From the NCBI RefSeq assembly GCF_000166135.1, contig NC_014666.1, positions 3,162,001 through 3,226,000 of the forward strand: a stretch of DNA of 64,000 bases. The letters are read 5' to 3'. The stretch is from Pseudofrankia inefficax. GTDB lineage: Bacteria > Actinomycetota > Actinomycetes > Frankiales > Frankiaceae. Below are positions 39,005 to 58,403 of the stretch, piece after piece (positions within the stretch are counted from its first letter, which is position 1; every line of letters starts with the position of its first letter). Under the pieces are notes generated by a model. It was not told the origin of the DNA and made no database searches. It saw only the letters and a list, made by a program, of their open reading frames with translations. Made by a program: the position numbers and the translations under genes.

Positions 39005-39046
39005 CTGGGTCGGCAGTGACTCGGCGACTCGGCCAGAAGTGATCGG
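38993..39046. repeat. Imperfect triplicate repeat spanning the binding-protein stop codon
   Basis: Related units ggccagaagtgactgg, gtcggcagtgactcgg and cgactcggccagaagtgatcgg follow one another. Each carries an agtga element; the first holds the TGA of the binding-protein gene. The next gene starts at 39047. Confidence 0.65.
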
Positions 39047-42740: not shown

Positions 42741-44012
42741 GTGGAGCCCACCACAACGCAGACGATCGCGACGCCGACCGAGACCCCCGCCGCGACCGGC
42801 TCGCTCTCCGTCGAGGAGGCGATCCTGGCCTCGTTCGTCCCCGAGTCCCGGCACAACCCGTACCCCGCCTACGACGTGCTCCGGGAGACCGGCCCGTTCG
42901 TTCCCGGCCCGTTCAACCTGCAGATCGTCACGCGGTACGCCGAGGCCGACGCCGTCCTGCAGGACCACGCGTGGAGCCACGCCGCGGAGCCCGAGTTCCT
43001 GCACCCGGACAGCGACGGCTCGGACCTGCCCGCGTCCTTCCTCTGGATGGAGCCGCCGGACCACACCCGGCTGCGTCGCCTGGTGAGCAAGGCCTTCACG
43101 GCCCGCGGCCTGGAGAACATGCGCGGCCAGGTCGAGAAGGTCGCCGCCGAGGTCGTCGGCAACGCGATCGAGAAGGGCGAGATCGACGTCGTCGAGGACC
43201 TCGCCTACCCGCTGCCGCTCGCGATGATCGCCGAGCTGATCGGCGTGCCCCCGGAGGACCTGCCGTTCGTGCGGGCCAACTCCGCCGGCGTCGCCCGCGG
43301 CCTGGACCCCGACACCCTGCTGACCGCCGAGGAGCTGAAGGCCCGGGCCGACGGCGCGCAGAACTTCCGCGACTACTTCGAGAAGATGGTCGCCGAGCGG
43401 CGCGCCCGGCCGAAGGACGACCTCATCACCGCCCTGGCCCAGGTCGAGGCCGGCGGCGACCGGCTGACCACCGGCGAGATGATCGCCACGCTCACCGTGC
43501 TGCTGATCGCCGGCCACGAGACCACCGTGAACCTGCTGGCCAACGGCGTGCTGTCGCTGACGCGTAACCCCGACCAGTTCGAGGTGCTGCGCGACAATCC
43601 CGACCTCGCGCTGCCCGCCGTCGACGAGCTGATGCGTTATGACGGCCCGTCGCACGCGACCACCCGCAAGGCCGTCCAGGACATCGAGATCTCCGGCCAC
43701 AGCTTCAAGGAAGGCACCGGCGTTCTCATCCTGCTCGCCGCCGCCAACCGCGACCCGCGCGCGTTCCCGAACCCGAACAAGCTCGACCTCACCCGTTACG
43801 CCCAGTCGACGGCCGTGCCTCGGCATCTCGGTTTTGGTGTCGGACATCACTACTGCATCGGCGCGCCGCTGGTTCGGCTGGAAATGGAATGCATGTTGCG
43901 GGAGCTGGCTCGCCGCGCCCCGGTCATGACGCTGCTGGCCGACCCGCCGCCCTATCGGCCGAACATCGTCGTGCGCGGCATCGCGGAACTGCCCGTGCGA
44001 TTCGAGATCTAG
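42741..44012 (+). CDS. Cytochrome P450 (pair member A2)
   Basis: A 423-residue P450. I-helix LLIAGHETTVN, ExxR in VDELMRY, heme loop FGVGHHYCIGAPLVRLE near residue 370. It matches P450 A1 over long stretches (DLPASFLWMEPPDHTRLR). It is the first gene of the cluster after a 550-base regulatory spacer and precedes P450 B2 by 52 bases. P450s oxidise C-H bonds with O2 and two electrons; with an acyl-AMP ligase and carrier protein downstream, fatty chain hydroxylation is plausible. No ferredoxin or reductase gene lies in the window. Confidence 0.9.
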   Translation: MEPTTTQTIATPTETPAATGSLSVEEAILASFVPESRHNPYPAYDVLRETGPFVPGPFNLQIVTRYAEADAVLQDHAWSHAAEPEFLHPDSDGSDLPASFLWMEPPDHTRLRRLVSKAFTARGLENMRGQVEKVAAEVVGNAIEKGEIDVVEDLAYPLPLAMIAELIGVPPEDLPFVRANSAGVARGLDPDTLLTAEELKARADGAQNFRDYFEKMVAERRARPKDDLITALAQVEAGGDRLTTGEMIATLTVLLIAGHETTVNLLANGVLSLTRNPDQFEVLRDNPDLALPAVDELMRYDGPSHATTRKAVQDIEISGHSFKEGTGVLILLAAANRDPRAFPNPNKLDLTRYAQSTAVPRHLGFGVGHHYCIGAPLVRLEMECMLRELARRAPVMTLLADPPPYRPNIVVRGIAELPVRFEI

Positions 44013-44064
44013 GCACCTCAGGATCTGAGCACCGACCCGACAACGAGATCGGAGCGAAGGCTCG

Positions 44065-45324
44065 ATGGTGAACGATGCCGTGGTCGAGAATGTCGTCGAG
44101 TTCGACGCCTTCGACCTCGAACACCGGGCCAACCCGTATCCCCGGTACCGGGTGCTGCGGGAGACGGCGCCGTTCTGCCCGGTCCGCCTCGGCGCGGCCC
44201 GGGTGACGGTGGCGACCACCTACGCGGGCTGCGCCGCGGTGCTGCAGGGCTCCGAGTGGGGCCGGGGCTACGCCGACGGGCTGAACCCGTTCCGGCCCGG
44301 CGTCGCCCCCGGCGAGGTTCCCGGCGGCTCGTTCCTCGGGATGGACCCGCCCGACCACACCCGGCTGCGGGCGCTGGTCAGCCGGGCCTTCACCCCACGG
44401 GCGAGCCTCGCCGAGACCCCGTTCGTCCGCCTGGTCGTCGACCGCCTCGTCGCGGCGGCGGTCGACGACGGCGGCCTGGACGTCGTCGCGGGCCTGGCCA
44501 GGCCGCTGTCGGTCGCCGTCATGTGCCGGCTGCTCGGCGTCCCGGTCGCCGACGCGCCGTCCTTCCTGGGCTGGATTCAGGGGATCGCCCGCGGCACCGA
44601 CCCCGACTACCTGCTCTCCCCGGCGGACATCGTGGTCCGCACGGCCTGCGCCAGGGACCTCGGCCGGTACCTGTTCGAGCTGGTCACCGTCCGGCGCGTC
44701 GCCCCGCGAGACGACCTGGTCAGCCGGCTGGTCGCGATCCAGCGGGACCAGGACGTGCTGACCGAGGTGGAGATCGTCGAGCTCTGCGCGCTGCTGCTGG
44801 CGGCGGGGCTCGACACGACGGCGAACCTGGTCACGAACGGGGTGCTGGCGCTGCTGCGCCACCCCGACCAGCTGGAGCTGCTGCGCGAGCGGCCCGAGCT
44901 GATGCCCGCCGCCGTCGACGAGATGCTCCGCTACGACCCGCCGTCCCAGTTCGTCACCCGGGTGGCGCTGGCCGACACGACCGTCGGCGGGCAGAGCTTC
45001 CGCCGCGGCGACGGTGTGGTCGTGCTGAGCGCCGCCGGGCACCGCGACCCGGCCGCGTTCCCGGACCCGGACCGGTTCGACGTCACCCGGTACGCGGCGT
45101 CCCCGCCCGCGCGCCGCCACCTCGGCTTCGCGCTCGGGCTGCACTACTGCCTCGGTGCGCCGCTCGCCCGGATCCAGGCCGAGGCCGCGATCGGGACGCT
45201 GCTGAGCCGCGCTGGCGAGCTGCGGCTCGCGACCGAGGACGTCGAGTACCGGCCGAACGCGGCCCTGCGCGGGCCGGCGTCCCTGTTGGTGAACATCAAG
45301 GGAGACAGCGATGCTCACCGGTAG
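44065..45324 (+). CDS. Cytochrome P450 (pair member B2)
   Basis: A 419-residue P450. I-helix LLLAAGLDTTAN, ExxR in VDEMLRY, heme loop FALGLHYCLGAPLARIQ. It shares DG-NPFRPGVAP with B1. It lies downstream of A2, and its last 14 bases overlap the acyl-AMP ligase start, so the two are coupled. Its substrate may be carrier-bound or a free fatty acid; this is inference. An AGATCGGAGCGAAGG stretch precedes the ATG at 44065. Confidence 0.9.
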   Translation: MVNDAVVENVVEFDAFDLEHRANPYPRYRVLRETAPFCPVRLGAARVTVATTYAGCAAVLQGSEWGRGYADGLNPFRPGVAPGEVPGGSFLGMDPPDHTRLRALVSRAFTPRASLAETPFVRLVVDRLVAAAVDDGGLDVVAGLARPLSVAVMCRLLGVPVADAPSFLGWIQGIARGTDPDYLLSPADIVVRTACARDLGRYLFELVTVRRVAPRDDLVSRLVAIQRDQDVLTEVEIVELCALLLAAGLDTTANLVTNGVLALLRHPDQLELLRERPELMPAAVDEMLRYDPPSQFVTRVALADTTVGGQSFRRGDGVVVLSAAGHRDPAAFPDPDRFDVTRYAASPPARRHLGFALGLHYCLGAPLARIQAEAAIGTLLSRAGELRLATEDVEYRPNAALRGPASLLVNIKGDSDAHR

Positions 45325-46999
45325 CGCCGGCAACCTCACCGACGCCCTGGCGGCGGTCGTCGCCGCCGATCCCACCTGCCCGGTGTCCTTTCCCTCCACC
45401 GGCCGGGACCTCACCGTCCGCGAGCTCGCCACGCTCTCCCAGGCCGTGGCCGGCGCGCTGGCCGGGCGCGGGGTCGAGGGCGGTGAGCGGCTCGGGGTGC
45501 TCAGCCGCAACAGCCCGGACTTCCTCGTCGCGCTGTTCGCCGCCGTGCGGGTGGGCGCCGCCGCCTGCCCGCTGCCGCTGCCGACCTCGGCCCGCGACCT
45601 GTCCGGCTACGCCAGCCGGCTGTCCGGGATCGTCGCGGCCGCCGGCATCCGGCGCATCCTCGTCGACGACAAGCTCGGCGGGGTCGCCAGTCGGCTCGCG
45701 GGGGTGCTCGCCGGGGTGGAGCTGATCCCGCTGGGCAGTCTCACCGCCGAGGGCAGCGGCGCCGCCGGCGCGCCGCGGCTGCCCGACGTCGAACCGGACG
45801 AGCTCGCGGTCGTCCAGTTCACCTCGGGCAGCACGGCGGCGCCGAAGGGGGTGCGGCTGACCCACCGCAACGTCCTCGCCGGGCTCGCCGCGATCGCCGA
45901 GGGCATCGACATCCGCCCGGGCGAGGACCACGGCGCCCTGTGGCTGCCGATGTTCCACGACATGGGCCTGTTCGGGACCCTGGCCGGCATGTTCGCCGGG
46001 ATCCCGATGACGGTCTGGAACCCCGGCGCGTTCGTGAAGGACCCGGCCCGCTGGCTGCGCGAGTTCGCCGCCCGCGGCGGGACGATCTCGCCGGCCCCGA
46101 GCTTCGGGTACGAGACGCTGGTCGAGGCCGTGCCGCGCGACGAGGTCCCCAAGCTCGACCTCAGCCGCTGGCGGGTCGCGCTGAACGGGGCCGAGCCGAT
46201 CCCGATGGCCGGCATCGAGAGCTTCCTGGAGCACTTCGCGCCGGCCGGCCTCGCGCCGACGGTGATGCTGCCGGTCTACGGGATGGCCGAGGCGACGCTC
46301 GCGGTCACCTTCCCGCCGCTGGGCCGGGTCCCGACCGCGCTGTGGGTGGACCGGGACCGGCTGGCCTCGGACGGCCGGGCGGTCTTTGTCGCGGCGGACG
46401 ACCAGCGGGCTCGGGGGCTGCCCGCGCTCGGTGGTCCGGTCCGCGGGGTCCGGGTCCGGGTGGTCGGCGCGGATGGGCGGCCGGTCGCGGACCGCGAGAT
46501 CGGCGAGGTCGAGATCGCCGGCGAGCCGGTCACCGCCGGCTACCTCACCGCGCCGGGTGCGCCCCCCGCGCCCGTGCCCGACGCCGACGGCTGGCTCGGC
46601 ACCGGCGACCTCGGGTTCCAGCACGAGGGGGAGCTGTACGTGACCGGCCGGCGCAAGGAAATGATCATCGTGCGCGGCGTGAACTTCTACCCGGAGGACG
46701 CCGAGAGCGTGATCCGGGACGCGCCCGGCCTGCACCGGCGGCGCTGCGTCGCGTTCGCCGACACCGGCGACGGCGGCGGCGAGCTGATCACCATCGTCGG
46801 CGAGAGCGCGCTGGAGGACCCGGCCGACCGGGCCCGGCTCGCCGCCGACCTGCGGGCCGCCGTGTCGGGCGCGCTCGGCCTGCCGGACGTGGCCGTGCAC
46901 CTCGTCGGCCCCGACGACCTGCCCCGCACCTCCAGCGGGAAGTTCCAGCGGCTCGCCGCCCGGGAGCTGACCCGGGAGGCGGCCCGCCTGGACGCCTGA
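45311..46999 (+). CDS. Fatty acyl-AMP ligase (FAAL-like)
   Basis: A 562-residue adenylate-forming enzyme. A3 motif QFTSGSTAAPKGVRLTHRN (about 173-191), WLPMFHDMGLFG typical of FAALs, A5-like YGMAEATLAVTF, A8 GTGDLGFQHEGELYVTGR, and A10 lysine in PRTSSGKFQR. The stretch LWVDRDRLASDGRAV to GGPVRG corresponds to the insertion that makes FAALs form acyl-AMP but not acyl-CoA. It would load a fatty acid onto the free carrier protein encoded at 48.5 kb. GGGAGA precedes the ATG, which lies inside B2. Confidence 0.85.
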   Translation: MLTGSAGNLTDALAAVVAADPTCPVSFPSTGRDLTVRELATLSQAVAGALAGRGVEGGERLGVLSRNSPDFLVALFAAVRVGAAACPLPLPTSARDLSGYASRLSGIVAAAGIRRILVDDKLGGVASRLAGVLAGVELIPLGSLTAEGSGAAGAPRLPDVEPDELAVVQFTSGSTAAPKGVRLTHRNVLAGLAAIAEGIDIRPGEDHGALWLPMFHDMGLFGTLAGMFAGIPMTVWNPGAFVKDPARWLREFAARGGTISPAPSFGYETLVEAVPRDEVPKLDLSRWRVALNGAEPIPMAGIESFLEHFAPAGLAPTVMLPVYGMAEATLAVTFPPLGRVPTALWVDRDRLASDGRAVFVAADDQRARGLPALGGPVRGVRVRVVGADGRPVADREIGEVEIAGEPVTAGYLTAPGAPPAPVPDADGWLGTGDLGFQHEGELYVTGRRKEMIIVRGVNFYPEDAESVIRDAPGLHRRRCVAFADTGDGGGELITIVGESALEDPADRARLAADLRAAVSGALGLPDVAVHLVGPDDLPRTSSGKFQRLAARELTREAARLDA

Positions 47000-47041
47000 G
47001 CCCCACCCGAGTCCCAGCCCGAACGCTGAAGGAGACCCAGG

Positions 47042-47830
47042 ATGCACAGCTTCGACGTCTTCCACCACTACGAACGCAAGCACTGGCGCCTGGCGGACGT
47101 CCCGTGGCACGAGGTGCGCAAGGACCTCGTCCGGCCCGAGTACGTCACGATGGCCAAGAGCGCCGTCATGGGCGAGGCGAACTCGATCGCCGCGCAGCAC
47201 GGCTTCCTCAACGAGTTCGACGACTACGACTTCTCGGCGTTCGTGGCGATCTGGGGCTACGAGGAGCTCCAGCACCACTTCGCGTTCCGGACCTGGCTGA
47301 ACGCGGTCGGCGCCGAGGTCAAGCCCGCGGCGGTCGAGGCGATGCGCGAGCCGTACGACCCCGGCAGCACCCCGTGCGCCACGCTGGCGACGAACATCAT
47401 CTCCGAGCTGACCGTGAACCACATCTACCGCGCGGTCGCGGCCTGGGTCGAGGAGCCGGTGCTGCGCGGGATCATGAGCAGCGCCAGCATCGACGAGGCC
47501 GGGCACGCCAGGGAGTTCCTGCACTTCGCGCGCAAGCGGCTGGAGGCGCACCCGGAGGAGCTCCCGTCGGTGCTGGAGACGCTGCACGTCTACACCGGCG
47601 AGCAGCGGATCAAGCACCCGGTCGGGGTGTTCAAGAGCGAGCTGGTCGCCCTGAAGGACCACGAGACGATCGACACCGCGTTCGAGATGTTCCTGGAGCA
47701 GGTCGCCACCACCGGCGAGCTGGAGAAGCTCCAGGACAACATCCGCCGCGCGTTCGCCTCGCTGACCGGGATGGACGTCAGCTCCAACGCCCGGGTCCGC
47801 CGGCGGCTCGCGGAAGCCCTCGCCGCATGA
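47042..47830 (+). CDS. Ferritin-like diiron enzyme (acyl-ACP desaturase/oxygenase-like)
   Basis: A 262-residue four-helix-bundle protein. The diiron ligands fit E45 (GEANS), E75-x-x-H78 (EELQHH), E122 (ISELT) and E152-x-x-H155 (DEAGHA), the E, ExxH, E, ExxH pattern of soluble desaturases and AurF-like oxygenases. It probably acts on an acyl chain held by the ACP, by desaturation or hydroxylation. A strong AAGGAGA lies before the ATG. The thioesterase start overlaps its stop (ATGA). Confidence 0.8.
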   Translation: MHSFDVFHHYERKHWRLADVPWHEVRKDLVRPEYVTMAKSAVMGEANSIAAQHGFLNEFDDYDFSAFVAIWGYEELQHHFAFRTWLNAVGAEVKPAAVEAMREPYDPGSTPCATLATNIISELTVNHIYRAVAAWVEEPVLRGIMSSASIDEAGHAREFLHFARKRLEAHPEELPSVLETLHVYTGEQRIKHPVGVFKSELVALKDHETIDTAFEMFLEQVATTGELEKLQDNIRRAFASLTGMDVSSNARVRRRLAEALAA

Positions 47831-48504
47831 CGGTCGAGGACCAGGTCACCCACGAGCACAGCACCCACGAGCACCTGACCCACGAGCACGCCGGCCATGA
47901 CCGCGCCGGCGCCGGTCACGCCTCGGCGGATCACATCGAGCTGCCCTGGTACGTCCTGCCGGACTACCGGTGCTTCGGCTGCTCGCCGCACAACCCGAGC
48001 GGGGTCCAGCTGCGGTTCACCCACCACGGCGACGGGCTGCGGACCGTCTTCCGGCTGGGGCGGGCGCACGAGTCCTACCCCGGCGTGGTCCACGGCGGGC
48101 TGCTCGGCGTGATCGCCGACGAGATCATGGGCAACCTGATCGTCCTGCGGACCGGCCAGATCCCGTTCACCACCGGCATGCGGGTGCGCTACGTCCTGCC
48201 GGTGATCGTCGGCGGCGGCTACGAGTGCGTCGCGACGGTCCGGGCCGGCAAGGGACCGCTGCTCCATACCGAGGCGGAGATCCGCGAGGAGGGTGGCGAC
48301 CTGGTCGCCACGGCCACGGCCAGCTACCAGACCGTCTCGCTCGACGAGGCCCGCGGCCGCATCTCGCTGGACGCCCCGGAGGTCGAGCGCCTGCGCCAGG
48401 CGCTGTCGGCCGCCGTCGCGGCCGCCACCACCAGCCACCCAGCCAGCCCCCACCCAGCCAGCACCAGCGTTCTCGCGGAGGAATCCCATGTCAGTGTCGA
48501 CTGA
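47827..48504 (+). CDS. PaaI-type hotdog thioesterase with His-rich N-terminus
   Basis: A 225-residue protein. The first 35 residues are a His/Glu-rich run (THEH three times, then HAGHDRAGAGHASADH) coded by short repeats, and could bind metal. The hotdog domain follows: CFGCSPHNPSGVQLRF, SYPGVVHGGLLGVIADEIMG (the HGG motif holds catalytic elements) and YVLPVIVGGGYE. It could release the product from the carrier or remove wrong acyl groups. The C-terminal tail (HPASPHPAS) reads through the ACP ribosome-binding site and overlaps the ACP gene by 17 bases. Confidence 0.8.
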   Translation: MTVEDQVTHEHSTHEHLTHEHAGHDRAGAGHASADHIELPWYVLPDYRCFGCSPHNPSGVQLRFTHHGDGLRTVFRLGRAHESYPGVVHGGLLGVIADEIMGNLIVLRTGQIPFTTGMRVRYVLPVIVGGGYECVATVRAGKGPLLHTEAEIREEGGDLVATATASYQTVSLDEARGRISLDAPEVERLRQALSAAVAAATTSHPASPHPASTSVLAEESHVSVD

Positions 48505-48751
48505 CGAGCTCATCACCGAGATCACCGGCATCGTGGCCGAGGAGCTCGGCGTCTCCACCGAGGCCGTCTCGCCGGACGCCGACCTGCGCGCCGTCGAGGG
48601 CGCCGACTCGGTCAAGGTCCTGCGGGTCATCGCCCGCATCGAGCGCGCCCACGACGTCGAGCTCGAGGACGAGGAGGTCTTCGGCGCGTCGACGGTCCGC
48701 GAGGTCGCCGAGGTCCTGCAGCGCGCGCTCGCGGAGACGGCCGCCGTATGA
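48488..48751 (+). CDS. Acyl carrier protein (discrete)
   Basis: An 87-residue acidic carrier protein. The phosphopantetheine serine lies in EGADSVKVLRV (Ser near residue 39), with helix 1 ITEITGIVAEELGV and helix 3 STVREVAEVLQ. It lacks the usual DSL and has DSV. It is presumably the partner of the FAAL and the carrier for the diiron enzymes, methyltransferase and oxoamine synthase. GGAGGAA precedes the ATG, and the next gene starts in its stop (ATGA). A phosphopantetheinyl transferase is not encoded in the window. Confidence 0.85.
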   Translation: MSVSTDELITEITGIVAEELGVSTEAVSPDADLRAVEGADSVKVLRVIARIERAHDVELEDEEVFGASTVREVAEVLQRALAETAAV

Positions 48752-49620
48752 CCGCCGTGACGGACCTGACCACAGGCACAGCCGCTGCCGCCGAGACCGC
48801 GCAGACCAACCAGCACTATGACCTCGACCCGCGGATCTTCGGGCTGTTCCTCGACCCGATGCGCAAGTACTCCTCGGGCTACTACCGCAAGCCCGACCTG
48901 ACGCTGGCCGAGTCCCAGGTCGAGAAGCTGCACTTCGTGGCCGACCGCCTCGGCCTGCGCCAGGGCGACCGGCTGCTCGACGTGGGCTGCGGCTGGGGCT
49001 CGCTGATCCTGTTCATGGCCGAGCACTACAAGGCGCGGGTCGTCGGGATCAGCCCGGCGGGCAACCAGCACGCCTATATCGCGGGGCGGGCGGCTGAGCT
49101 GGGTGTCGCGGACCGGGTCCAGACGGTCCAGGGCCATTTCGAGCAGGCCGACCTGCCCGACGGCCCGTTCGACGCGGTGACGATGCTCGGCTCGATCGTG
49201 CACATGCCCGACCTCGTGCACGTGATGCGCCGGGCCCGCTCGATGCTGCGCAGGGGCGGCCGCTACTACGTCTCGGAGAGCTGCTTCCGCAACGCGGCCA
49301 CCCGCGAGACGTTCGACCGCACGGTCGGGCTCGAGTTCGTCCGCAACTCGATCTTCGGCTGGGGCGACATGCGCCCGCTCTCGGACCTGGTTCGCGCGGC
49401 CGAGGACGCCGGGTTCTCCATCGTCAGCGTCGACGATCTGACCGACGACTACCGCCTCACGATCGACGAGTGGATCCGCAACGTCGACGCCAACGCGGAC
49501 GCCATCGAGGAGATCTCCCCGGGGATGTCGGCGACGCTGCGCCGTTACCTGGAGGTCGCCAACGCCGGCTGGGGCTACACGACCAAGCACTACGCGCTCG
49601 TCTGCCAGAAGTCCCGGTAG
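48748..49620 (+). CDS. CFA synthase/MmaA-like SAM-dependent methyltransferase
   Basis: A 290-residue methyltransferase related to cyclopropane fatty acid and mycolic acid synthases. The family blocks are HYDLDPRIFGLFLDP, MRKYSSGYY, TLAESQVEKLHFV and motif I LLDVGCGWGSLILFMAEHY. Canonical enzymes have HYDxGNDFY; here it is HYDLDPRIF, so the reaction may be methyl transfer other than cyclopropanation. It would act on a double bond made by the diiron enzymes. Its start overlaps the ACP stop. A short hairpin (ggcccgg/ccgggcc, 49620-49641) follows. Confidence 0.8.
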   Translation: MTAVTDLTTGTAAAAETAQTNQHYDLDPRIFGLFLDPMRKYSSGYYRKPDLTLAESQVEKLHFVADRLGLRQGDRLLDVGCGWGSLILFMAEHYKARVVGISPAGNQHAYIAGRAAELGVADRVQTVQGHFEQADLPDGPFDAVTMLGSIVHMPDLVHVMRRARSMLRRGGRYYVSESCFRNAATRETFDRTVGLEFVRNSIFGWGDMRPLSDLVRAAEDAGFSIVSVDDLTDDYRLTIDEWIRNVDANADAIEEISPGMSATLRRYLEVANAGWGYTTKHYALVCQKSR

Positions 49621-49712
49621 GCCCGGGCCGTTCACCGGGCCCGCGGCCGAGGCGTCACCGCACCCGCGGGTCGCCGACAGGCCAGGCCCACCGCCGCTCC
49701 GGGAGGACGGAC

Positions 49713-50609
49713 ATGAGTTTGGACAGCAACCGCAGGGCCGCGGCGGAGCCGGTGGGCCAGGCCGCCGGGCCGCTGCTGCCCCCCGCCGACGTCGCCGACG
49801 CCGTCGGCACCTTCATGCGCTCGTCGCCGATCGAGCGGCGCTGGGACGTCGAGTCGGCCTTCGCCTGGGAGCGGGCCGACGCCGGCAGGCTCACCGAGGG
49901 CCAGCGCTCGGCGGTCCAGTTCATCACCTACATCGAGGACCACCTGCCGGGTTACTTCGGCCTCTACGCCCGGCGGTTCCCGCTCGACGAGTCGGTCGAC
50001 GTCGACACCTTCACGCACAACCGCGAGCTGTACCACTTCACGGTCCGCTGGGCCGAGGAGGAGGACGTGCACGCCCGGGCGCTGTTCGCCTACCAGGTGG
50101 CGTCCGGCCTGTCCGAGCCGGCGAAGCTGCGGGCCGAGCTCGCCGTCGAGGGGCGCAAGCCCTTCACCTCGCCGCTGGAGCACGGCGTGTCCCTGTTCGC
50201 CTACGCGCTCGTCCAGGAGAAGGCGACCCAGATCTACTACCAGCAGCTGCGCGCCGTCGTCGGCGACCCCGTGCTGGTGGAGGTGCTCAACCGCCTCAGC
50301 CGCGACGAGGCCCGCCACTTCACCTTCTTCGCGGACCTGGTGGAGCGCACGCTGCGCCGGTACGGCGACCAGGTGGTCGACCCGATCCGGGACGTGATCG
50401 CCGGCTTCCGGATGCCGCTGGCGGACACGCTGCGCGGCTACTGGAGGTGGGCGCTGAAGATCGCCGACGCGGCGCACTACGACCACACGGACGCCTACGA
50501 GCACCTCATCCGGGTGGTGAACCGCGCGGTCGACGCCCGCACCGACCGGGTCGACGAGCTGACCCGGTTCGTCGCGGCGTGCCGCACGCCCTTGGCGAGC
50601 CAGGCCTAG
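49713..50609 (+). CDS. Second ferritin-like diiron enzyme (acyl-ACP desaturase-like)
   Basis: A 298-residue helical protein. The ligands fit E75 (ITYIEDHL), E117-x-x-H120 (EEEDVHA), E169 (VQEKAT) and E199-x-x-H202 (DEARHFT). The spacing and TYIEDHLPGYF start resemble the actinobacterial acyl-ACP desaturase (FA_desaturase_2) group. It is distinct from the diiron protein at 47.0 kb, so two separate oxidations of the chain are likely. GGGAGG precedes the ATG at 49713. The next gene begins four bases after its stop. Confidence 0.8.
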   Translation: MSLDSNRRAAAEPVGQAAGPLLPPADVADAVGTFMRSSPIERRWDVESAFAWERADAGRLTEGQRSAVQFITYIEDHLPGYFGLYARRFPLDESVDVDTFTHNRELYHFTVRWAEEEDVHARALFAYQVASGLSEPAKLRAELAVEGRKPFTSPLEHGVSLFAYALVQEKATQIYYQQLRAVVGDPVLVEVLNRLSRDEARHFTFFADLVERTLRRYGDQVVDPIRDVIAGFRMPLADTLRGYWRWALKIADAAHYDHTDAYEHLIRVVNRAVDARTDRVDELTRFVAACRTPLASQA

Positions 50610-50613
50610 CCGG

Positions 50614-51522
50614 ATGGGGGAGCAGATGCGTGCGCAGGCCGGTCAGCCGGGTGTGCTCAAGGGACAGCCGGGTGTGCTCAGGAACAAGGTCGCCGTGATC
50701 ACCGGTGCCACCAGCGGCATCGGGGCCGCGACGGCGGCGGTGTTCCTCGCCGAGGGTGCCAGCGTCGTCATCGGGGGGCGGCGCAAGGATGTGGGCGAGG
50801 CGCTCGCCGCCGAGCTCGGGCCGCGGGCCCGGTTCACCGCGGCCGACGTCCGGGTCGAGGCCGACGTCGAGGCGCTGATGGCCACGGCGGTCGACGAGTT
50901 CGGCGGCCTGGACGTGCTGGTCAACAACGCCGGGGTCGGCGTGGCGAAGCCGCTGCCGCTCCCGGAGGCGGACTACGCGGCGTTCCTCGACACGCTGGCC
51001 GTCCACGCGGGCGGGATGTTCCTCGGCATCAAGCACGCGGCCCGGATCATGGTCCCGCGCGGGTCGGGCAGCATCATCAACATGTCCAGCATCGGCGGGC
51101 ACCGCGCGGGCTGGTCGGACATCAGCTACTCGACGGCCAAGGCCGGGGTGCACCAGCTGACCCGCTCGGCCGCGGTCGAGCTGGGGCTGCGCGGGATCCG
51201 GGTGAACAGCATCTCGCCCGGCCCGATCCCGACCGGGATCTTCGCCAAGAACGCCGGCGTCGACGCCGACCGGGCCGACCGGACGGCCGCGGCGCTGGAG
51301 CCGCTGTTCGTCGAGGCGCTGGCCAGCCACCAGTCGCTGCGGCGGGCGGGCCGGGTCGAGGACGTGGCCGCGGCGGCGCTGTGGCTCGCGTCCGACGCCT
51401 CGTCGTTCGTCACCGGCCAGGACCTCGGCGTCGACGGCGGCATCGCGGCCGGCCGGCCGATCTCGGTCGCGGTGACCGAGCGCCGCCTGCTGGCCGAGGC
51501 CTTCTCGTCCCTGCCGGACTGA
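50614..51522 (+). CDS. Short-chain dehydrogenase/reductase
   Basis: A 302-residue classical SDR. The cofactor motif is TGATSGIG, followed by NNAG (VLVNNAGVG), a catalytic Ser strand (INMSSIGGHRAG) and YSTAK. An NADH/NADPH choice cannot be fixed. The N-terminus has an in-frame duplication (GQPGVLK, GQPGVLR; DNA 50640-50681). It might reduce a beta-keto or amino-ketone intermediate, or oxidise a hydroxyl introduced by the P450s. A stable hairpin follows its stop. Confidence 0.85.
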   Translation: MGEQMRAQAGQPGVLKGQPGVLRNKVAVITGATSGIGAATAAVFLAEGASVVIGGRRKDVGEALAAELGPRARFTAADVRVEADVEALMATAVDEFGGLDVLVNNAGVGVAKPLPLPEADYAAFLDTLAVHAGGMFLGIKHAARIMVPRGSGSIINMSSIGGHRAGWSDISYSTAKAGVHQLTRSAAVELGLRGIRVNSISPGPIPTGIFAKNAGVDADRADRTAAALEPLFVEALASHQSLRRAGRVEDVAAAALWLASDASSFVTGQDLGVDGGIAAGRPISVAVTERRLLAEAFSSLPD

Positions 51523-51578
51523 GCTCGCACCCGGACCGGGGCGGCCACGCCCCCGGCGGCCCCGGTCCGGGCACGAGC
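51523..51578 (+). terminator. Hairpin between SDR and sulfotransferase genes
   Basis: Perfect 13-base arms cccggaccggggc (51530-51542) and gccccggtccggg (51559-51571), extended outward by GCTCG/CGAGC after a 2-base bulge, enclose a 16-base loop. It begins right at the SDR stop and could end or attenuate the first part of the cluster transcript before the sulfotransferase. Confidence 0.65.
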
Positions 51579-51612
51579 ACCGGACCGCTGACGGACTCGA
51601 GGAGCGCATCCC

Positions 51613-52740
51613 GTGACCACGATCGGAACGGTCGAGGAACTCCACGCCACCGCCCGCGAAATCACCGGGCTGTCCGACTTCGGCCCTTCGGACTACCTGG
51701 AGGGACTCAAGGTCGTCCTCGCCGCCTACGAGCGGGAGGCCGGCCTGACGCCGGACGGCGCCCGCCTGATCCGGGACGAGCTGTGCGGGATCCTGGTCGC
51801 CCGCCTGTTCAGCGAGGCCGGCTGGCGCCAGTACCCGGACTACGCCCAGAACCCGGTCGAGCGCCCGGTCTTCATCATCGGCCTGCCGCGCACGGGCACG
51901 ACCACGCTGCACCGGCTGCTGACCGCCGACCCGGCCAACCAGGGCCTCGAACTGTGGCTCACCTACGCTCCCCAGCCCCGGCCCCCGCGCTCGACCTGGC
52001 CCGACAACCCGGTCTTCCGGGCGGTCGAGCAGGGCGTCGACGGCTTCTTCGCGCGGCAGCCCGACTACCGGGGGATTCACGACCGCACGGCCGACGGGGT
52101 CGAGGAGTGCTGGCTGCTGACCCGCCAGTCGATGCTCTCGGCGTACTTCGAGTTCACCGGCTACGTCCCGAGCTACTCCGACTGGCTGGCCGGCCAGGAC
52201 TGGACCGAGGCGTACCTGCGGCACCGGCGCAACCTCCAGCTGATCGGGCTGCGTGACCCCGGCCGTCGGTGGGTGCTCAAGTCCTCCAGCCACCTGCCCT
52301 GCCTGGACGCGCTGGTCGCGGCCTACCCCGATGCGATGATCATCCAGACCCATCGCCGGCCCGCCGGCGCGGTGCTCGGATCGGCGTGCAGCATGGCGAG
52401 CAGGCTCGCCGGCGGCACGTCGTCGACCTTCCAGGGCGCCGCGATCGGCCCCGTCCTGCTCGACCTCGCCGAGCGCACGCTCGCGCGGTTCGCCGCCGAC
52501 CGGGCCAGGCACGACCCCGCCAGGTTCCACGACGTCGAGTTCGCGGAGTTCACGGCCGACCCGCTGGCGGTCGTCGCCGGCATCTACCGCCACCTCGGCT
52601 GGGAGCTTCCCGACGACGTCCGCCCCGCGATGGCCGCCGTCCTGGCCCAGGACGCCAGCCTGCGTTCGCACCGCTACGACCTCGCCGACTTCGGCGTCAG
52701 CGCCCAGGAGGCCGACGCCCGGCTCGGAGCCCTGCTCTGA
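51613..52740 (+). CDS. PAPS-dependent sulfotransferase
   Basis: A 375-residue sulfotransferase. The 5'-phosphosulfate loop is GLPRTGTTTLHRLL near residue 95, and the 3'-phosphate contact is in QTHRRPAGAVLGSACS near residue 245. The protein resembles the actinobacterial Sulfotransfer_3 group, which includes mycobacterial lipid sulfotransferases. It would add sulfate to a hydroxyl of the product, perhaps one made by a P450. GAGGAG precedes the GTG start. Tandem repeats span the stop codon and fill the 81-base gap to the next gene. Confidence 0.85.
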   Translation: MTTIGTVEELHATAREITGLSDFGPSDYLEGLKVVLAAYEREAGLTPDGARLIRDELCGILVARLFSEAGWRQYPDYAQNPVERPVFIIGLPRTGTTTLHRLLTADPANQGLELWLTYAPQPRPPRSTWPDNPVFRAVEQGVDGFFARQPDYRGIHDRTADGVEECWLLTRQSMLSAYFEFTGYVPSYSDWLAGQDWTEAYLRHRRNLQLIGLRDPGRRWVLKSSSHLPCLDALVAAYPDAMIIQTHRRPAGAVLGSACSMASRLAGGTSSTFQGAAIGPVLLDLAERTLARFAADRARHDPARFHDVEFAEFTADPLAVVAGIYRHLGWELPDDVRPAMAAVLAQDASLRSHRYDLADFGVSAQEADARLGALL

Positions 52741-52802
52741 CCAGGCACGACGCAGACCAGGCGCGACCTCTGACCAGGGACGACGTCTGACCAGGCACGA
52801 CG
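52736..52802. repeat. Four-copy 16-17-bp tandem repeat spanning the sulfotransferase stop
   Basis: Copies tctgaccaggcacgacg (52736), cagaccaggcgcgacc (52753), tctgaccagggacgacg (52769) and tctgaccaggcacgacg (52786) follow head to tail. The first contains the stop TGA. They fill the spacer before the ribosome-binding site of the oxoamine synthase. Confidence 0.85.
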
Positions 52803-52821
52803 GACGAGATGAGGAACGATC

Positions 52822-54057
52822 GTGACCACCAGGTCCGCGGATCCGGCCCTTGACCGCTGGGGATTCTCCGCATGGCTGGACGCCACCCGCCGCAGCGGTG
52901 ACTTCGTGATGCCACCCGAGCTCGACGACGTGAACGACGCGGTCATCAGCGTCGACGGCCGCAAGATGATCAACTTTGCCGGCATCGGCATCCTGGGCTG
53001 GCAGCACGACCCGGAGGTGCGCAGGGTCTTCGCCGAGACGGCGGCGACGTACGGCCTGGTCGTCGGCGGCTCCCGGCTGGTCCAGGGGGTGTCCCGGCCG
53101 CACCTGGAGCTGGAGCGGCTGGTCGCCGAGATCAGCGGCAAGGAGAAGGCGCTGACCTTCGCCACCGGGCTGCTGGCCAACGTCGGCTTCGTCAACGCGA
53201 TGAGCGCCGCCTTCTCGTTCGACGACCGGGTCGGCGTGGACAACGCGGACGCCGTGCTCGTGCTCGACCGGCGCAGCCACTGGAGCGTCTGGAAGGGCAC
53301 CGAGGGCTTCGAGCGGGGGCGCAACCTGTTCGCCTTCCGCCACAACGACCCCGCCCATCTCAGGGAGCTGCTGGAGCAGCTGCGCGGCCGGCCGGTGATC
53401 GTGGGGTTCGAGACCGTGTACTCCGCGGACGGCTCGATCGCGCCGATCGGCGCGATCCTCGACCTGTGCGACGAGTTCGGCGCGGTCAGCTTCGCCGACG
53501 ACGCCAACGGCTTCATGGTCTACGGCAACGGCGGCCACCGGTTCGCCGCCGAGTACGAGGCGCTGCGCCGGGTGACCTTCCTGATGGTCTCGTTCGGCAA
53601 GGGCGTCGGGCTCAGCGGCGGCGCCCTGGCCGGACCGGCCGACGCGATCGACGCCTTCCACTACCTGTCGGGCACGTCGATGTTCACCACCAACATCCAG
53701 CCGCCGACCGCCGGCGCCATCGTGCACGTGCTGCGCAGGATGCGCCAGGACCCGTCGGTGATGGAGCGCTACCTCGACCGGGTCGACGGGCTGCGTGCGC
53801 GGCTGCTCGAGATCGGCTGCGCCATCAACCCCACCCCGACCTACGTCACCTCGATCGCGATCGGCTCCCGGGACGTCGGGCTGCGGGTCCGCCAGGAGTT
53901 CCTGGACCGCGGATACCTGGTCCCGATGTTCGGCTACCCCGCGGTGAAGAAGGACGCGGCGGTGATCCGGCTGCTGATGAACGACCGGATCGCCGACAAG
54001 GACCTGAACGGCTTCGTCGACACCCTGGCCGAGCTCAGGCACCGGTACGAGTTCTGA
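52822..54057 (+). CDS. PLP-dependent alpha-oxoamine synthase family enzyme
   Basis: A 411-residue fold-type I PLP enzyme of the AONS/serine palmitoyltransferase group. Lys260 in VSFGKGVGLSGG forms the internal aldimine. Asp226 in ADDANG contacts the pyridine nitrogen. His153 (RRSHWSVWKG) is the ring-stacking His. The usual DxAH motif has Asn (N229) where His is conserved, which should change acid-base properties near the PLP hydroxyl. Family enzymes condense an acyl thioester with glycine, serine or alanine and release CO2 to give an amino-ketone. With the FAAL and ACP nearby, an acyl-ACP donor is likely. GAGGAA precedes the GTG start. Confidence 0.85.
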   Translation: MTTRSADPALDRWGFSAWLDATRRSGDFVMPPELDDVNDAVISVDGRKMINFAGIGILGWQHDPEVRRVFAETAATYGLVVGGSRLVQGVSRPHLELERLVAEISGKEKALTFATGLLANVGFVNAMSAAFSFDDRVGVDNADAVLVLDRRSHWSVWKGTEGFERGRNLFAFRHNDPAHLRELLEQLRGRPVIVGFETVYSADGSIAPIGAILDLCDEFGAVSFADDANGFMVYGNGGHRFAAEYEALRRVTFLMVSFGKGVGLSGGALAGPADAIDAFHYLSGTSMFTTNIQPPTAGAIVHVLRRMRQDPSVMERYLDRVDGLRARLLEIGCAINPTPTYVTSIAIGSRDVGLRVRQEFLDRGYLVPMFGYPAVKKDAAVIRLLMNDRIADKDLNGFVDTLAELRHRYEF

Positions 54058-54094
54058 GACCGGCCCGCTCGACCGCGACGCACGGAGGCTGACG

Positions 54095-57000
54095 ATGGCC
54101 CCACTGTCCGGTGGCCCTGGGCTCGGCAGCCCTGGACCCAGCGGCCCTGAACCCAGCGGCCCTGGACCCAGCAGTCCTGGACCCGGCAGCGCTGGACCCG
54201 GTGACCCTGGACCCGGCGCCCCGGGGCTCGATGCGCGGAGCCGGCGCCGGGTCGCCGAGCTGTACGCGACCGACCAGCAGGTCCGCGACGCCAGGCCGCT
54301 CGCGGCGGTCACGGAGGCGCTCCGGGCGCCGGGGCTGTCGCTGGGACGCATCCTGGCGATCATCATGGCGGGCTACGCGGACCGGCCCGCGCTCGGCGAG
54401 CGCGCGCGGGAGCTGGTCGTCGACTCCGAGACCGGGGTGAGGACGCTTCGCCTGCTGCCGAGGTTCGACACGATCAGCTACCGCGAGCTGTGGTCCCGCG
54501 CCGGCGCCATCGCCGCCGAGTGGCTGCACCATCCAGGCGCCCCGCTGGGTGTCGGCGATCTTGTCGGCGTCCTCGGTTTCACCGGCGCCGACTACACCAC
54601 GATCGAGCTGGCCTGCGTCCGCGGCGGGGCCGTCTCGGTGCCGTTGCAGTCCGGCGCGGCGGCGAGCCAGCTCGTGTCGATTCTGGCCGAGACCCAGCCG
54701 CGGATCCTCGCCGTCACGGTGGACCTGCTGGCGACCGCCGTCGAGGGCGCGCTGGCCAGCCCGTCGGTGCGCAGGCTGGTGGTCTTCGACGACCACGCCG
54801 AGGCCGACGCGCACCGGCAGGCGTGCGACGCCGCCCGCCGCCGCCTGGCCGACGCCGCCCGCCCGACCGAGTCCGGCCACCCGGCCGTGCTGGACTCGCT
54901 GGCCACCCTGGTGGCGCGGGGCGCGCGCCTGCCGGCGCCGCCGGTGCCGGAGGCCGCGCCGGACGACGCGCGGCTCGCCACCGTGATCTACACCTCCGGC
55001 AGCACGGGCACGCCGAAGGGCGCGATGTACCCCAACGGCCTGGTCAAGCTGGCCTGGCGGGCCGGGTTCTGGCCCAGGTCGGACGACCTGCCGGTCATCT
55101 CCTACAACTGCCTGCCGATGAGCCACGTGTCGGCGCGGGCCACGCTGGCCGGGACGCTGGCCGCCGGGGGGACCAGCCACTTCGCGGCGGCGAGCGACCT
55201 GTCGACGCTGTTCGAGGACATCGCGCTGGTCCGGCCGACGGCGCTGCGCCTGGTGCCCCGCCTCTGCGACCTGCTGTTCCAGCGCCACCGCGGCGAGCTG
55301 GACCGGCGGTCGGCCGGCGCGGGCGACCAGGCGGCCGTCGACGCGGAGGTGAAGAAGGAGCTGCGCGAGGACCTTCTCGGCGGCCGCCTGGCCTGGATCG
55401 GATCGGGGTCCGCCCCGTTGTCCGCCGAGATGGCCGCCTTCATCGAGTCGTGCACCCAGCTCCCGGCGCACGACGGCTACGGCTCGACCGAGACCGGGCG
55501 CGTGCTCGTCGACGGGAGGGTGTCCCGGCCCCCGGTGCGGGACTACCGGCTCGACGACGTCCCCGAGCTGGGCTACTCCCGCGCCGACTCGCCGTACCCC
55601 CGCGGCGAGCTGCTGGTCAGGACCGCGGCCCTCATCCCCGGGTACTACCGGCGCCCCGAGCTCACCGCGCGGCTCGTCGACGCCGACGGCTACTACCGGA
55701 CCGGCGACATCATGGCCGAGATCGGACCGGACGAGCTGGCCTTCGTCGAGCGTCGCGCCCACGTGCTGAAACTGGCCCAGGGCGAGTTCGTCGCCGTCGC
55801 CCGGCTGGAGGCGCTGTTCGCCACCAGCCCGCTCGTCCACCAGGTCTTCGTCCACGGCGACAGCGAGCGTGCCTACCTGCTCGCGGTGGCGGTGCCCACG
55901 GCGGCGGCCCTCGACCGGGCCGGGGAGGACGGCCCGGCGCTCAGGTCGCTGATCCTTGAGTCCCTGCGGCGCACCGCGCGCGACGCCGGCCTGAGCCCGC
56001 ATGAGATCCCCCGCGACGTCCTGATCGAGACCGAGCCGTTCAGCGTGGAGAACGGCCTGCTCTCGGGCGTCCGCAAGCCCCTGCGGCCCAGCCTCGAGCG
56101 CCGCTACGGCGAGGGTCTGGAGCGGCTGTACGCCGAGCTCACCGAACGGGAGGCCGACGAGCTGGGCGCGCTGCGCCGCGCGGGCCGCGACCAGCCGGTC
56201 CTCGACGCCGTGACGCGGGCGGCCCAGGCGCTGCTCGGGCGCGTGAACGGCGAGGCGCACCCCGAGGCGCACTTCCTCGACCTCGGCGGCGACTCGCTGT
56301 CCGCGCTGTCGTTCGCCACGCTGCTCGCCGAGATCTTCGCGGTCGACGTGCCGGTGGGCGTCATCACCAGCCCGGCCCACGACCTTCGGAAGGTGGCGAG
56401 CCACCTCGAAACGGCGCTGCGGTCAGGGCCGAGCGGGCCGACGTTCGCGACGGTGCACGGCGCCGACGCCACGCGGGTCAGGGCCACCGACCTCGCCCTG
56501 GACAGGTTCCTCGACGACCGGACGCTCGGCGCGCCGGCGCGGTCGAGCGGCCCGGCCCGCGTCGTGCTGCTGACCGGCGCCACCGGCTACCTCGGCCGCT
56601 TCCTGTGCCTGGAATGGCTGGAGCGGCTGGCGCCGACGGGCGGCCTGCTGATCTGCGTCGTGCGAGCCGCCGACCCCGGCGCCGCGCGTGCCCGGCTCGC
56701 CGGGGCGTTCGACTCGGGCGATCCCGACCTGGTCGCCCGGTTCCAGCGGCTGGCCGCCCGGCACCTGGAGGTCGTCGCGGGCGACGTCAGCGAACCCGGC
56801 CTCGGCCTGGACGAGGCGACCTGGCGGCGCCTGGCCGAGACCGTCGACCTCATCGTCCACTCGGCCGCCCTGGTCAACCACCTGCTGCCCTACGAGCAGC
56901 TGTTCGGCCCCAACGTCGTCGCCACGGCCGGGCTGATCCGCCTGGCGCTCACCGCGCGGACCAAGCGGTTCACCTACGTGTCCACCATCGGCGTGGTCGC

Positions 57001-57769
57001 CGCCCAGTCCGCCGCCCGCGCCGAGGACGCCGACATCCGCCTCGCGAGCCCCGTCCGCGCGCTCGACGGGCGATACGCCAGTGGCTACACGGCGAGCAAA
57101 TGGGCCGGGGAGGTCCTGCTCAGGGCGGCGCACGAACGGTACGGCCTGCCGGTGGCCGTCCTGCGGCCGGACCTGATCCTCGCCCACAGCCGCTACGCGG
57201 GCCAGCTGAACCTCTCCGACGTCGTCACCAGGCTGCTGTTCAGCCTCGCCGCCACGGGCCTCGCGCCGCGGACCTTCGAGGCCGCCGACGCGGGCCGGGC
57301 GCGGGCGCGGGTCGGCGGCCTGCCGGTCGACGTCACAGCGGCCGCCGTCGCCACGCTGGGCGCGTGGCCGGACCAGGGCTACCAGACCTTCAACGTGCTC
57401 CAGCCGTCCGGCGACGGACCGTCCCTCGACACGCTCGTCGACGGGCTCGTCGAGGCCGGCTGCCGCCTGACGCGGATCGAGGACTACGCCCAGTGGCTGG
57501 CGCGGTTCGCGACCGCGGTGCGCGCGCTGCCCGAGCGGCGCCGGCGGTATTCGCTGCTTCCCCTGCTCACCGCGTTCGGGCAGCCCGGCGACCCCGTCGG
57601 ACGCCTCGGATTCCCGACCGACCATTTCGCGACCGGCCCTGTCCCCGCCGACCGCTTCCTCGCCGCCGCGAGCAGGGCCGGGCTTGGCGCCGCGGTGGCC
57701 ACACCCGGAATCTCGGCCGCGCTGCTGCGGAAGTACGTCAGCGACCTGCGCGGGCTGGACCTGCTCTGA
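54095..57769 (+). CDS. car: Carboxylic acid reductase (A-PCP-R)
   Basis: A 1224-residue three-domain protein. An N-terminal Gly/Pro/Ser repeat tail (about 50 residues) precedes the adenylation domain, with IYTSGSTGTPKGAMYPN near residue 297. The carrier domain has FLDLGGDSLSALSF with the phosphopantetheine Ser near 733. The thioester reductase domain starts VVLLTGATGYLGRFL near 823 and has the YTASK catalytic motif near 996. The size and domain order match NADPH-dependent carboxylic acid reductases that turn acids to aldehydes. It could make an aldehyde for condensation with an amine, or release a chain. The start is uncertain because of the repeats. Confidence 0.9.
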   Translation: MAPLSGGPGLGSPGPSGPEPSGPGPSSPGPGSAGPGDPGPGAPGLDARSRRRVAELYATDQQVRDARPLAAVTEALRAPGLSLGRILAIIMAGYADRPALGERARELVVDSETGVRTLRLLPRFDTISYRELWSRAGAIAAEWLHHPGAPLGVGDLVGVLGFTGADYTTIELACVRGGAVSVPLQSGAAASQLVSILAETQPRILAVTVDLLATAVEGALASPSVRRLVVFDDHAEADAHRQACDAARRRLADAARPTESGHPAVLDSLATLVARGARLPAPPVPEAAPDDARLATVIYTSGSTGTPKGAMYPNGLVKLAWRAGFWPRSDDLPVISYNCLPMSHVSARATLAGTLAAGGTSHFAAASDLSTLFEDIALVRPTALRLVPRLCDLLFQRHRGELDRRSAGAGDQAAVDAEVKKELREDLLGGRLAWIGSGSAPLSAEMAAFIESCTQLPAHDGYGSTETGRVLVDGRVSRPPVRDYRLDDVPELGYSRADSPYPRGELLVRTAALIPGYYRRPELTARLVDADGYYRTGDIMAEIGPDELAFVERRAHVLKLAQGEFVAVARLEALFATSPLVHQVFVHGDSERAYLLAVAVPTAAALDRAGEDGPALRSLILESLRRTARDAGLSPHEIPRDVLIETEPFSVENGLLSGVRKPLRPSLERRYGEGLERLYAELTEREADELGALRRAGRDQPVLDAVTRAAQALLGRVNGEAHPEAHFLDLGGDSLSALSFATLLAEIFAVDVPVGVITSPAHDLRKVASHLETALRSGPSGPTFATVHGADATRVRATDLALDRFLDDRTLGAPARSSGPARVVLLTGATGYLGRFLCLEWLERLAPTGGLLICVVRAADPGAARARLAGAFDSGDPDLVARFQRLAARHLEVVAGDVSEPGLGLDEATWRRLAETVDLIVHSAALVNHLLPYEQLFGPNVVATAGLIRLALTARTKRFTYVSTIGVVAAQSAARAEDADIRLASPVRALDGRYASGYTASKWAGEVLLRAAHERYGLPVAVLRPDLILAHSRYAGQLNLSDVVTRLLFSLAATGLAPRTFEAADAGRARARVGGLPVDVTAAAVATLGAWPDQGYQTFNVLQPSGDGPSLDTLVDGLVEAGCRLTRIEDYAQWLARFATAVRALPERRRRYSLLPLLTAFGQPGDPVGRLGFPTDHFATGPVPADRFLAAASRAGLGAAVATPGISAALLRKYVSDLRGLDLL
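54110..54225 (+). repeat. In-frame Gly-Pro-Ser minisatellite at the CAR N-terminus
   Basis: Imperfect 9-21-base units based on ggccctggacccagcag encode GPGPSSPGPGSAGP-like sequence between the start codon and the first folded residues of the reductase. Confidence 0.75.
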
Positions 57770-57814
57770 GCCGGGCTGGACCTGCTCTGAGCAGGCTCTG
57801 GACCTGATCCGAGC
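57751..57814. repeat. Tandem repeat spanning the CAR stop codon
   Basis: The unit cgggctggacctgctctgag plus c is present at 57751-57771 and exactly again at 57772-57792; a diverged third copy (aggctctggacctgatccga) runs to 57814. The first copy holds the CAR TGA. Confidence 0.85.
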
Positions 57815-57872
57815 GGGCTGGCGCGGGCGGACCGGCGGATCCCGGCGGGATTCTCAGGTCCCGGCGGCATTG

Positions 57873-58403
57873 TCAGGCGGCGGTCAGCAGGCAGGTGCAG
57901 CTGCCGTGCGCGACGAGCTTTCCGTCGGCGGCGGTGACGGTCGCCTCGGCGGTCGCCGTGCGGCGCCCGACGTGGACGGGCCGCGCCTCGCACGTCAGGA
58001 TGTCCGCGGTCAGGCCGACCGGGCGGACGAAGTTCACCTTGAGTTCCAGGGTCGTGTAAAAGGTGTCGGCCGGCAGCCTCGTGTAGACGGCGCTGCCCAT
58101 CGCGGTGTCCATCAGGGTGGCGATCACTCCGCCGTGCACGATGAACATGGCGTTCGCCGCCGCCGGCGAGGGCTGAAGGGTCCAGACGGAAAGACCGACC
58201 TCCAGGTCTTTCAGATGGATGCCGAGCGAGTGGCCGACGCCGATCTGGTCGGCCAGGCCCTGGTCCAGCAGAACCCGCAGGTCGGCGATCCGCTGGGCCA
58301 CCTCCGGGGTCGGCTGGGCGCCGCCGCCGTCGCGGGCGGCCCCGTCGCGCTGGCGGATGACAGCCGGGACGCCGTTCTTCGCCGCGATGCCGTCCTGGTC
58401 CAC
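57873..58403 (-). CDS. PaaI-type hotdog thioesterase
   Basis: A 176-residue hotdog protein. The motif is FIVHGGVIATLMDTAMGSAV, followed by TTLELKVNFVRPV and a C-terminal CTCLL. Such proteins hydrolyse acyl-CoA or acyl-ACP thioesters. It converges on CAR and may belong to the lipid cluster by function, but it is on the opposite strand, separately expressed. The GTG at 58403 gives a slightly long N-terminus for the family. Confidence 0.8.
   Translation of the reverse strand: MDQDGIAAKNGVPAVIRQRDGAARDGGGAQPTPEVAQRIADLRVLLDQGLADQIGVGHSLGIHLKDLEVGLSVWTLQPSPAAANAMFIVHGGVIATLMDTAMGSAVYTRLPADTFYTTLELKVNFVRPVGLTADILTCEARPVHVGRRTATAEATVTAADGKLVAHGSCTCLLTAA

Follow-up and report, generated by a model that had tools for sequence, protein, structure and literature searches.

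The twelve genes at positions 42741-57769 of a 64-kb stretch of the Pseudofrankia inefficax genome (the window; the genome is a single contig of 8,815,781 bases) very probably comprise two joined modules and not one unit. The first is a lipid cassette built around an acyl carrier protein (ACP) and found throughout the Frankiaceae; the second is an inserted group of three genes encoding a sulfotransferase (ST), a pyridoxal phosphate (PLP) enzyme of the alpha-oxoamine synthase (AONS) superfamily and a carboxylic acid reductase (CAR). That the two modules serve a single pathway is the reading we favour, with a probability of about 0.45. All twelve genes are intact and run in one direction, in the order P450-P450-FAAL-DII1-TE-ACP-MT-DII2-SDR-ST-AONS-CAR (FAAL, fatty acyl-AMP ligase; DII1 and DII2, diiron enzymes; TE, hotdog thioesterase; MT, methyltransferase). 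Gene calls and profile searches find no ketosynthase among them, and Pfam or NCBIfam models back every gene but DII1, which has no Pfam hit. Given the strong third-codon-position GC (GC3) bias of the reading frames, together with orthologs of high protein identity in other genomes, these are not chance open reading frames. The content thus agrees with the original prediction, which had described this gene set without a ketosynthase from the DNA letters; only the hotdog thioesterase, added by profile search, had gone unnamed there. Scanning for promoters and terminators gave a result at chance level.

The cassette was followed through 34 Frankiaceae genomes and the window's own (35 in all), supplemented by named relatives, the nearest to the window strain being Frankia sp. 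AgB1.9 and Pseudofrankia sp. BMG5.36. DII1, used as a marker, is present in 29 of the 35 genomes but in only 1 of 359 sampled outside the family. The DII1 neighbourhoods show FAAL-DII1-TE-ACP-MT-DII2, often accompanied by P450s and a PaaI-type thioesterase but not by the sulfotransferase, AONS or CAR, in one Frankiaceae genome after another. Two genomes, G031 and G029, carry transporter-P450-P450-FAAL-DII1-TE-ACP-MT-DII2-SDR-PaaI, which is the window order minus three genes. Because DNA homology to G031 (locus L084) stops at about 51571 on the left and resumes at about 57858 on the right, ST-AONS-CAR is an insertion of ~6.3 kb between the SDR and PaaI genes, or else was lost in the others. Partial second cassette copies also occur in G003 and G001 (DII1-TE-ACP-DII2, or DII1-ACP; DII1 at 52-53% identity), which suggests an older duplication.

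The distribution of the three inserted genes is quite different. Orthologs of AONS (73-97% identity) are found in only 8 of the 35 Frankiaceae genomes, the window's own included. A sulfotransferase gene adjoins AONS in 12 loci, counting the window; five other Frankiaceae have the pair with no cassette alongside, and Actinoplanes also carries it, with the sulfotransferase on the opposite strand. ST-AONS together with CAR occurs in AgB1.9, BMG5.36, Amycolatopsis GM8 and Nocardia alba, and within the Frankiaceae, surveyed with the reductase domain, the cluster-type CAR is found only in the company of ST-AONS. Since the cassette is family-wide and ST-AONS-CAR is patchy, an origin of the whole locus as one ancient unit is rejected. 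The proposal of a one-unit pathway to a sulfated amino-lipid therefore stands as regards the genes, all of which are present, but not as regards the unit; a sulfated amino-lipid in the window strain, lacking a counterpart in close relatives, is plausible from the gene content.

If the modules are distinct, the central question is whether they act together, and the places where they meet again favour functional coupling. In Pseudofrankia BMG5.36 (L042), FAAL-TE-ACP-MT-ST-AONS-CAR forms a single run. In Nocardia alba (L044), CAR and ST-AONS lie beside an inverted FAAL-DII1-TE-ACP-MT-DII2, and Amycolatopsis GM8 has CAR and ST-AONS on one contig and the full cassette on another. Outside the Frankiaceae, both genomes with CAR and ST-AONS also have the DII1 marker; given its presence in 3 of 361 genomes, the hand-computed chance of two out of two is ~5e-5, a figure that ignores relatedness and comes from a small number. 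Actinoplanes, Nonomuraea, Streptosporangium, Ktedonosporobacter and G202 have an AONS, with no cluster-type CAR seen nearby and no DII1. It is this rejoining in different arrangements, and the tracking of CAR plus ST-AONS by DII1, that argues for coupling. FAAL, a discrete ACP, AONS and CAR thus co-occur in BMG5.36 and Nocardia alba, whereas in most Frankiaceae the cassette stands alone; the neighbours do vary, as two modules would, yet their association in BMG5.36, Nocardia alba and Amycolatopsis GM8 is not random.

Several points weigh against a single pathway. Few independent joinings were seen, and the association could come from chance and shared ancestry. The five Frankiaceae in which ST-AONS stands apart from the cassette have no CAR, and at the BMG5.36 site the SDR and the two diiron enzymes are missing. 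An Asn that replaces a His in the AONS active site may alter its chemistry, and its amino acid substrate is not readable from sequence. The main competitor holds that two independent pathways lie side by side, the cassette making its usual lipid while ST-AONS-CAR draws on another acyl source and shares the operon for expression only. Each module does occur alone in other genomes, in G003 the two are ~100 kb apart, and ST-AONS clusters elsewhere have a FAAL, P450, carbamoyltransferase and exporter of their own (Frankia sp. R82). It is nevertheless at odds with the co-occurrence of CAR and ST-AONS with the cassette outside the Frankiaceae, adjacent in Nocardia alba, and with the BMG5.36 locus, where FAAL-TE-ACP-MT is joined to ST-AONS-CAR in spite of the missing diiron enzymes. 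We regard this explanation as rather unlikely, but it is the strongest of the alternatives. The R82 locus itself (L045:8818-20298) reads ST-AONS-SDR-MFS, then carbamoyltransferase, P450, a different FAAL (33% identity) and P450, and is another cluster, of different build, centred on the pair. In Frankia sp. AgB32 (L031:773-3166), an MMPL-family transporter immediately precedes ST-AONS.

The AONS enzyme belongs to a clade of its own (18 sequences; support 100/100), apart from 5-aminolevulinate synthase (ALAS), the serine palmitoyltransferase (SPT) pair and a BioF/Kbl-type oxoamine synthase, and it has members in a Chloroflexota genome and on a plasmid of the betaproteobacterium Eleftheria terrae. 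Scores against the established profiles fall far below their cut-offs (bioF, 204 bits against 426; ALAS, 157 against 339; Kbl, 146 against 460; CAI-1 type, 113 against 428; the SPT profiles NF047599 and NF047600, 154 against 500 and 146 against 640). With the tree, these scores exclude BioF, Kbl, ALAS and SPT; a grouping with BioF or Kbl, which the original prediction had named, together with acyl-CoA use, as fatal to its proposal, is not what the tree gives. The predicted structure is nearest to KBL and ALAS (Z 42), and the stacking His (H153), the PLP Asp (D226), the Schiff-base Lys (K260) and the carboxylate Arg (R383) are invariant in 17 aligned members. All 18 members have an Asn (N229) in a DDANGF motif where the ALAS, SPT and oxoamine synthase references read DEVH, DDAH or DEAH. 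The exchange of the PLP-pocket His for Asn is best taken as a variant trait of an enzyme that, judged by these features, stays within the superfamily. Some distant relatives lie near FAAL genes, a ketosynthase plus ACP, or type I polyketide synthase (PKS) genes, which suggests a carrier-bound acyl substrate, and several have an MFS exporter and an SDR nearby, the exporter suggesting a secreted product.

Other members of the clade sit in varied surroundings. In Nonomuraea and Streptosporangium (L049, L050), they share clusters with SDRs, an MFS exporter, a discrete ketosynthase and an ACP, and with a fusion of an AMP-ligase to an aldehyde-dehydrogenase-like domain. The Eleftheria terrae plasmid (L052:18529-24923) combines a 47%-identical AONS with an SDR, a methyltransferase, a GNAT-flavin oxidoreductase fusion and an SMR exporter. 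Solihabitans fulvus (L048:8227-15583) has GNAT, AONS, FAAL and MFS genes in a row, and the GNAT might N-acylate the product. In G202 (L035:8073-19999), a distant AONS (40%) with DDANGF is immediately flanked on both sides by type I PKS genes, a hint that an oxoamine synthase may release the chain there.

The sulfotransferase aligns over nearly its whole length with the mycobacterial Stf1 (Rv3529c) structure 2zq5 (400 bits; E 1e-118). In the tree, the AONS-linked sulfotransferases group together beside Stf1 (fork 93/94), with Stf9 and a PKS domain as long branches. A plasmid of Tsukamurella (L113:2144-9146) carries a pair of an Stf1-like sulfotransferase and an SDR near the sulfate-activation genes cysC and cysD; the SDR adjoins there too, but no AONS is annotated beside that sulfotransferase. 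The sulfate need not be a decoration, as CurM/Ols-type enzymes sulfate a hydroxyl ahead of elimination and aziridines have a natural precursor in beta-amino alcohol sulfates. It might accordingly act as a leaving group, the amino alcohol derived from AONS yielding an alkene or an aziridine or other cyclic amine, and hence a sulfur-free end product; a 34%-identical sulfotransferase domain within a cyanobacterial type I PKS is consistent with this. Stf1 is, however, the closest relative by far, and the locus shows no dedicated enzyme for cyclisation or decarboxylation, which leaves the leaving-group role improbable.

CAR has the full A-T-R organization of the solved enzymes of its kind, 5msc (1369 bits) and 5mso, and scores above the NCBIfam equivalog cut-off (Table 1); it contains both the carrier serine (LGGDSLS) and the NADPH motif (GATGYLG). 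In the tree, CARs linked to AONS fall into a single clade (98/97), a sub-clade tied to ST-AONS and apart from the ordinary Frankiaceae CARs, including the second CAR of this genome. The suggestion that an aldehyde made by CAR and the amino ketone from AONS condense to a heterocycle or imine, which the original prediction gave as its second option, is very improbable: CAR and AONS are close neighbours in the window and in L041, L042, L043 and L044, the CARs are of one clade, and the ligase/dehydrogenase-like fusion of Nonomuraea and Streptosporangium might play the part of CAR, but most ST-AONS pairs lack a CAR and no dedicated condensing or oxidising partner was identified.

The cassette enzymes are consistent with chemistry on an ACP-bound chain. 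The ligase has FAALs, not acyl-CoA ligases, as its top solved relatives (3pbk, then FadD32), and its top NCBIfam models are fatty acyl-AMP ligases, at scores under their cut-offs; by these comparisons it is closest to FAALs, and transfer to the ACP is predicted. Both diiron enzymes that had been claimed are confirmed by complete sets of six Glu/His ligands in every ortholog aligned. In DII1 these are E45, E75xxH78, E122 and E152xxH155 (invariant, 18 sequences) and in DII2 E70, E112xxH115, E164 and E194xxH197 (invariant, 15 sequences). The DII1 model (pLDDT 89) finds stearoyl-ACP desaturases as its top fold matches (Z 18.3, rmsd 3.2 over 234 residues). That desaturase-like fold also contains an azoxy synthase and oxidases, so acyl-ACP desaturation is a candidate reaction for these enzymes and not an assigned one.

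The methyltransferase is CFA-like, as had been stated, by family but not by active site. In all 16 of the cassette sequences aligned, the Cys of the cyclopropane fatty acid (CFA) synthases is replaced by Ser and their Glu by Val (YSCA to YSSG, or YSAG in one; GMFEHV to GSIVHM or GSVVHI). As both residues, which we take to be part of the bicarbonate site, are missing, cyclopropanation was judged unlikely; the methyl group may go to another acceptor. The SDR is kept in two loci without an AONS (L084 and L093), which places it with the cassette of the window's clade and not with the AONS module.

A pathway can be proposed on this basis, in which FAAL would load a free fatty acid onto the dedicated ACP, DII1 and DII2 would oxidise or desaturate the acyl-ACP, the methyltransferase would add a methyl group, and the P450s and the SDR would tailor the chain. 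Where no AONS exists, the hotdog thioesterases would release the chain. In the window strain, AONS would condense the tailored acyl-ACP with an amino acid, with loss of CO2, the SDR would reduce the resulting ketone, and the sulfotransferase would place a sulfate on a hydroxyl group. CAR may turn a carboxylic acid, either the thioesterase-released chain or another acid, into an aldehyde. This route would end in a long-chain amino ketone or amino alcohol bearing a sulfate. The genes, the two modules, their repeated joining and the intact active-site residues are observed; the acyl-ACP substrate, the use of an amino acid, the order of steps, the product, and the roles of CAR and of the sulfate are inferred.

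Part of this logic is already known from sphingolipid loci. In rhodobacteria, SPTs are found together with a dedicated ACP (AcpR) and an acyl-ACP synthetase (AasR) and prefer acyl-ACP (PMC9386255), and there as here a fatty-acid-activating ligase, a dedicated ACP and an alpha-oxoamine synthase are combined. The present locus differs in that its AONS is not an SPT by cut-off and tree and has the Asn for His, in that its ligase and ACP are part of a cassette also found with no AONS at all, and in the addition of the sulfotransferase, CAR, diiron enzymes and P450s. Sulfonolipid synthesis shares the idea of a sulfur-bearing amino-lipid made by a PLP condensing enzyme with acyl-ACP, which is used by its cysteate acyl-ACP transferase, SulA (PMC9304779). 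In that system, however, the sulfur comes from cysteate as a sulfonate, whereas here a sulfotransferase would add a sulfate, and the locus AONS is only ~24% identical to SulA in structure comparison.

The cassette itself resembles two further systems. Clusters for polyynes and terminal alkynes combine a FAAL, an ACP, desaturases and a thioesterase, the acid being loaded, oxidised on the ACP and released by the thioesterase. The logic of ACP loading, oxidation and thioesterase is similar, but the diiron enzymes here are of the soluble desaturase fold, no gene of the twelve matches a membrane desaturase family (Pfam, NCBIfam), and a methyltransferase and P450s are added. Mycobacterial DesA and MmaA modify the meromycolate chain on AcpM, and acyl-ACP desaturase relatives and a CMAS-family methyltransferase for ACP-bound chains are common to both; here, however, the methyltransferase lacks the two CFA-synthase residues and no mycolate machinery is found among the locus genes. 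The fatty-acid antibiotic amycomicin, with its three P450s, was also weighed as a possible relative of the cassette. A limited search of the open-access literature returned no paper in which an oxoamine synthase is linked to a CAR, a FAAL or a gene cluster with a sulfotransferase. The AONS clade, its sulfotransferase partner, the CAR and the joining to the Frankiaceae-wide diiron cassette are new to us.

At the edges of the locus, the P450s are variable accessories (Table 1). Counterparts of the first P450 adjoin the cassette in seven loci (L083, L084, L086, L090, L092, L093, L099), and orthologs of the second (82-98%) lie beside FAAL in four (L041, L084, L091, L093). The PaaI-type thioesterase is near the cassette in L083, L084, L086, L089, L092, L093 and L099. 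The order of the upstream ABC transporter genes is shared with L084, L091 and L093 and, in diverged form, with L042; within the window's clade the transporter keeps its synteny with the cassette, and its membership of the cassette is uncertain.

Table 1. Positions of the locus genes and their neighbours in the window.
Feature	Position	Strand	Basis and remarks
ABC transporter (solute-binding protein, two permeases, ATPase)	37625..42151	+	PF01547, PF00005
Cytochrome P450 a	42741..44012	+	PF00067; lipid cassette, variable accessory
Cytochrome P450 b	44065..45324	+	PF00067; lipid cassette, variable accessory
Fatty acyl-AMP ligase (FAAL)	45311..46999	+	Solved relatives, NCBIfam; opens the Frankiaceae-wide cassette
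DII1, soluble diiron oxidase of ferritin-like type, relative of acyl-ACP desaturases	47042..47830	+	Model, ligands
Hotdog (4HBT) thioesterase (TE)	47827..48504	+	PF03061 above cut-off; kept between DII1 and ACP
Discrete dedicated ACP	48488..48751	+	PF00550, 54.6 bits; GADSV serine present; conserved in cassette
CMAS-family SAM methyltransferase (MT)	48748..49620	+	PF02353
DII2, FA_desaturase_2 diiron oxidase	49713..50609	+	PF03405; related to DesA2 1za0
SDR reductase	50614..51522	+	PF13561
Insertion with ST-AONS-CAR, relative to G031	51572..57857	+	Flanking DNA homology
Sulfotransfer_3 sulfotransferase (ST)	51613..52740	+	PF13469, 168 bits
PLP alpha-oxoamine-synthase-superfamily enzyme (AONS), DDANGF motif	52822..54057	+	Tree, alignment, model
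Carboxylic acid reductase (CAR), A-T-R	54095..57769	+	NF041592, 1627.7 bits against cut-off 1300, residues 51-1224
PaaI-type hotdog thioesterase	57873..58403	-	PF03061; right border of insertion

Tentatively, and with somewhat less assurance than we attach to the single pathway, the Asn-type AONS clade and its Stf1-like sulfotransferases may define a new natural-product class, of sulfated amino-lipids, whose pathway would have been joined in Frankiaceae, Nocardia and Amycolatopsis to a family-wide acyl-ACP cassette and a dedicated CAR. If the single-pathway reading is true, a lipid cassette common to nearly all Frankiaceae would have acquired a movable add-on that turns its product into a sulfated amino-lipid. 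The nearly identical operons that have or lack the three inserted genes would then constitute a natural experiment, and the AONS clade would offer a way to test the role of the conserved PLP-pocket histidine.

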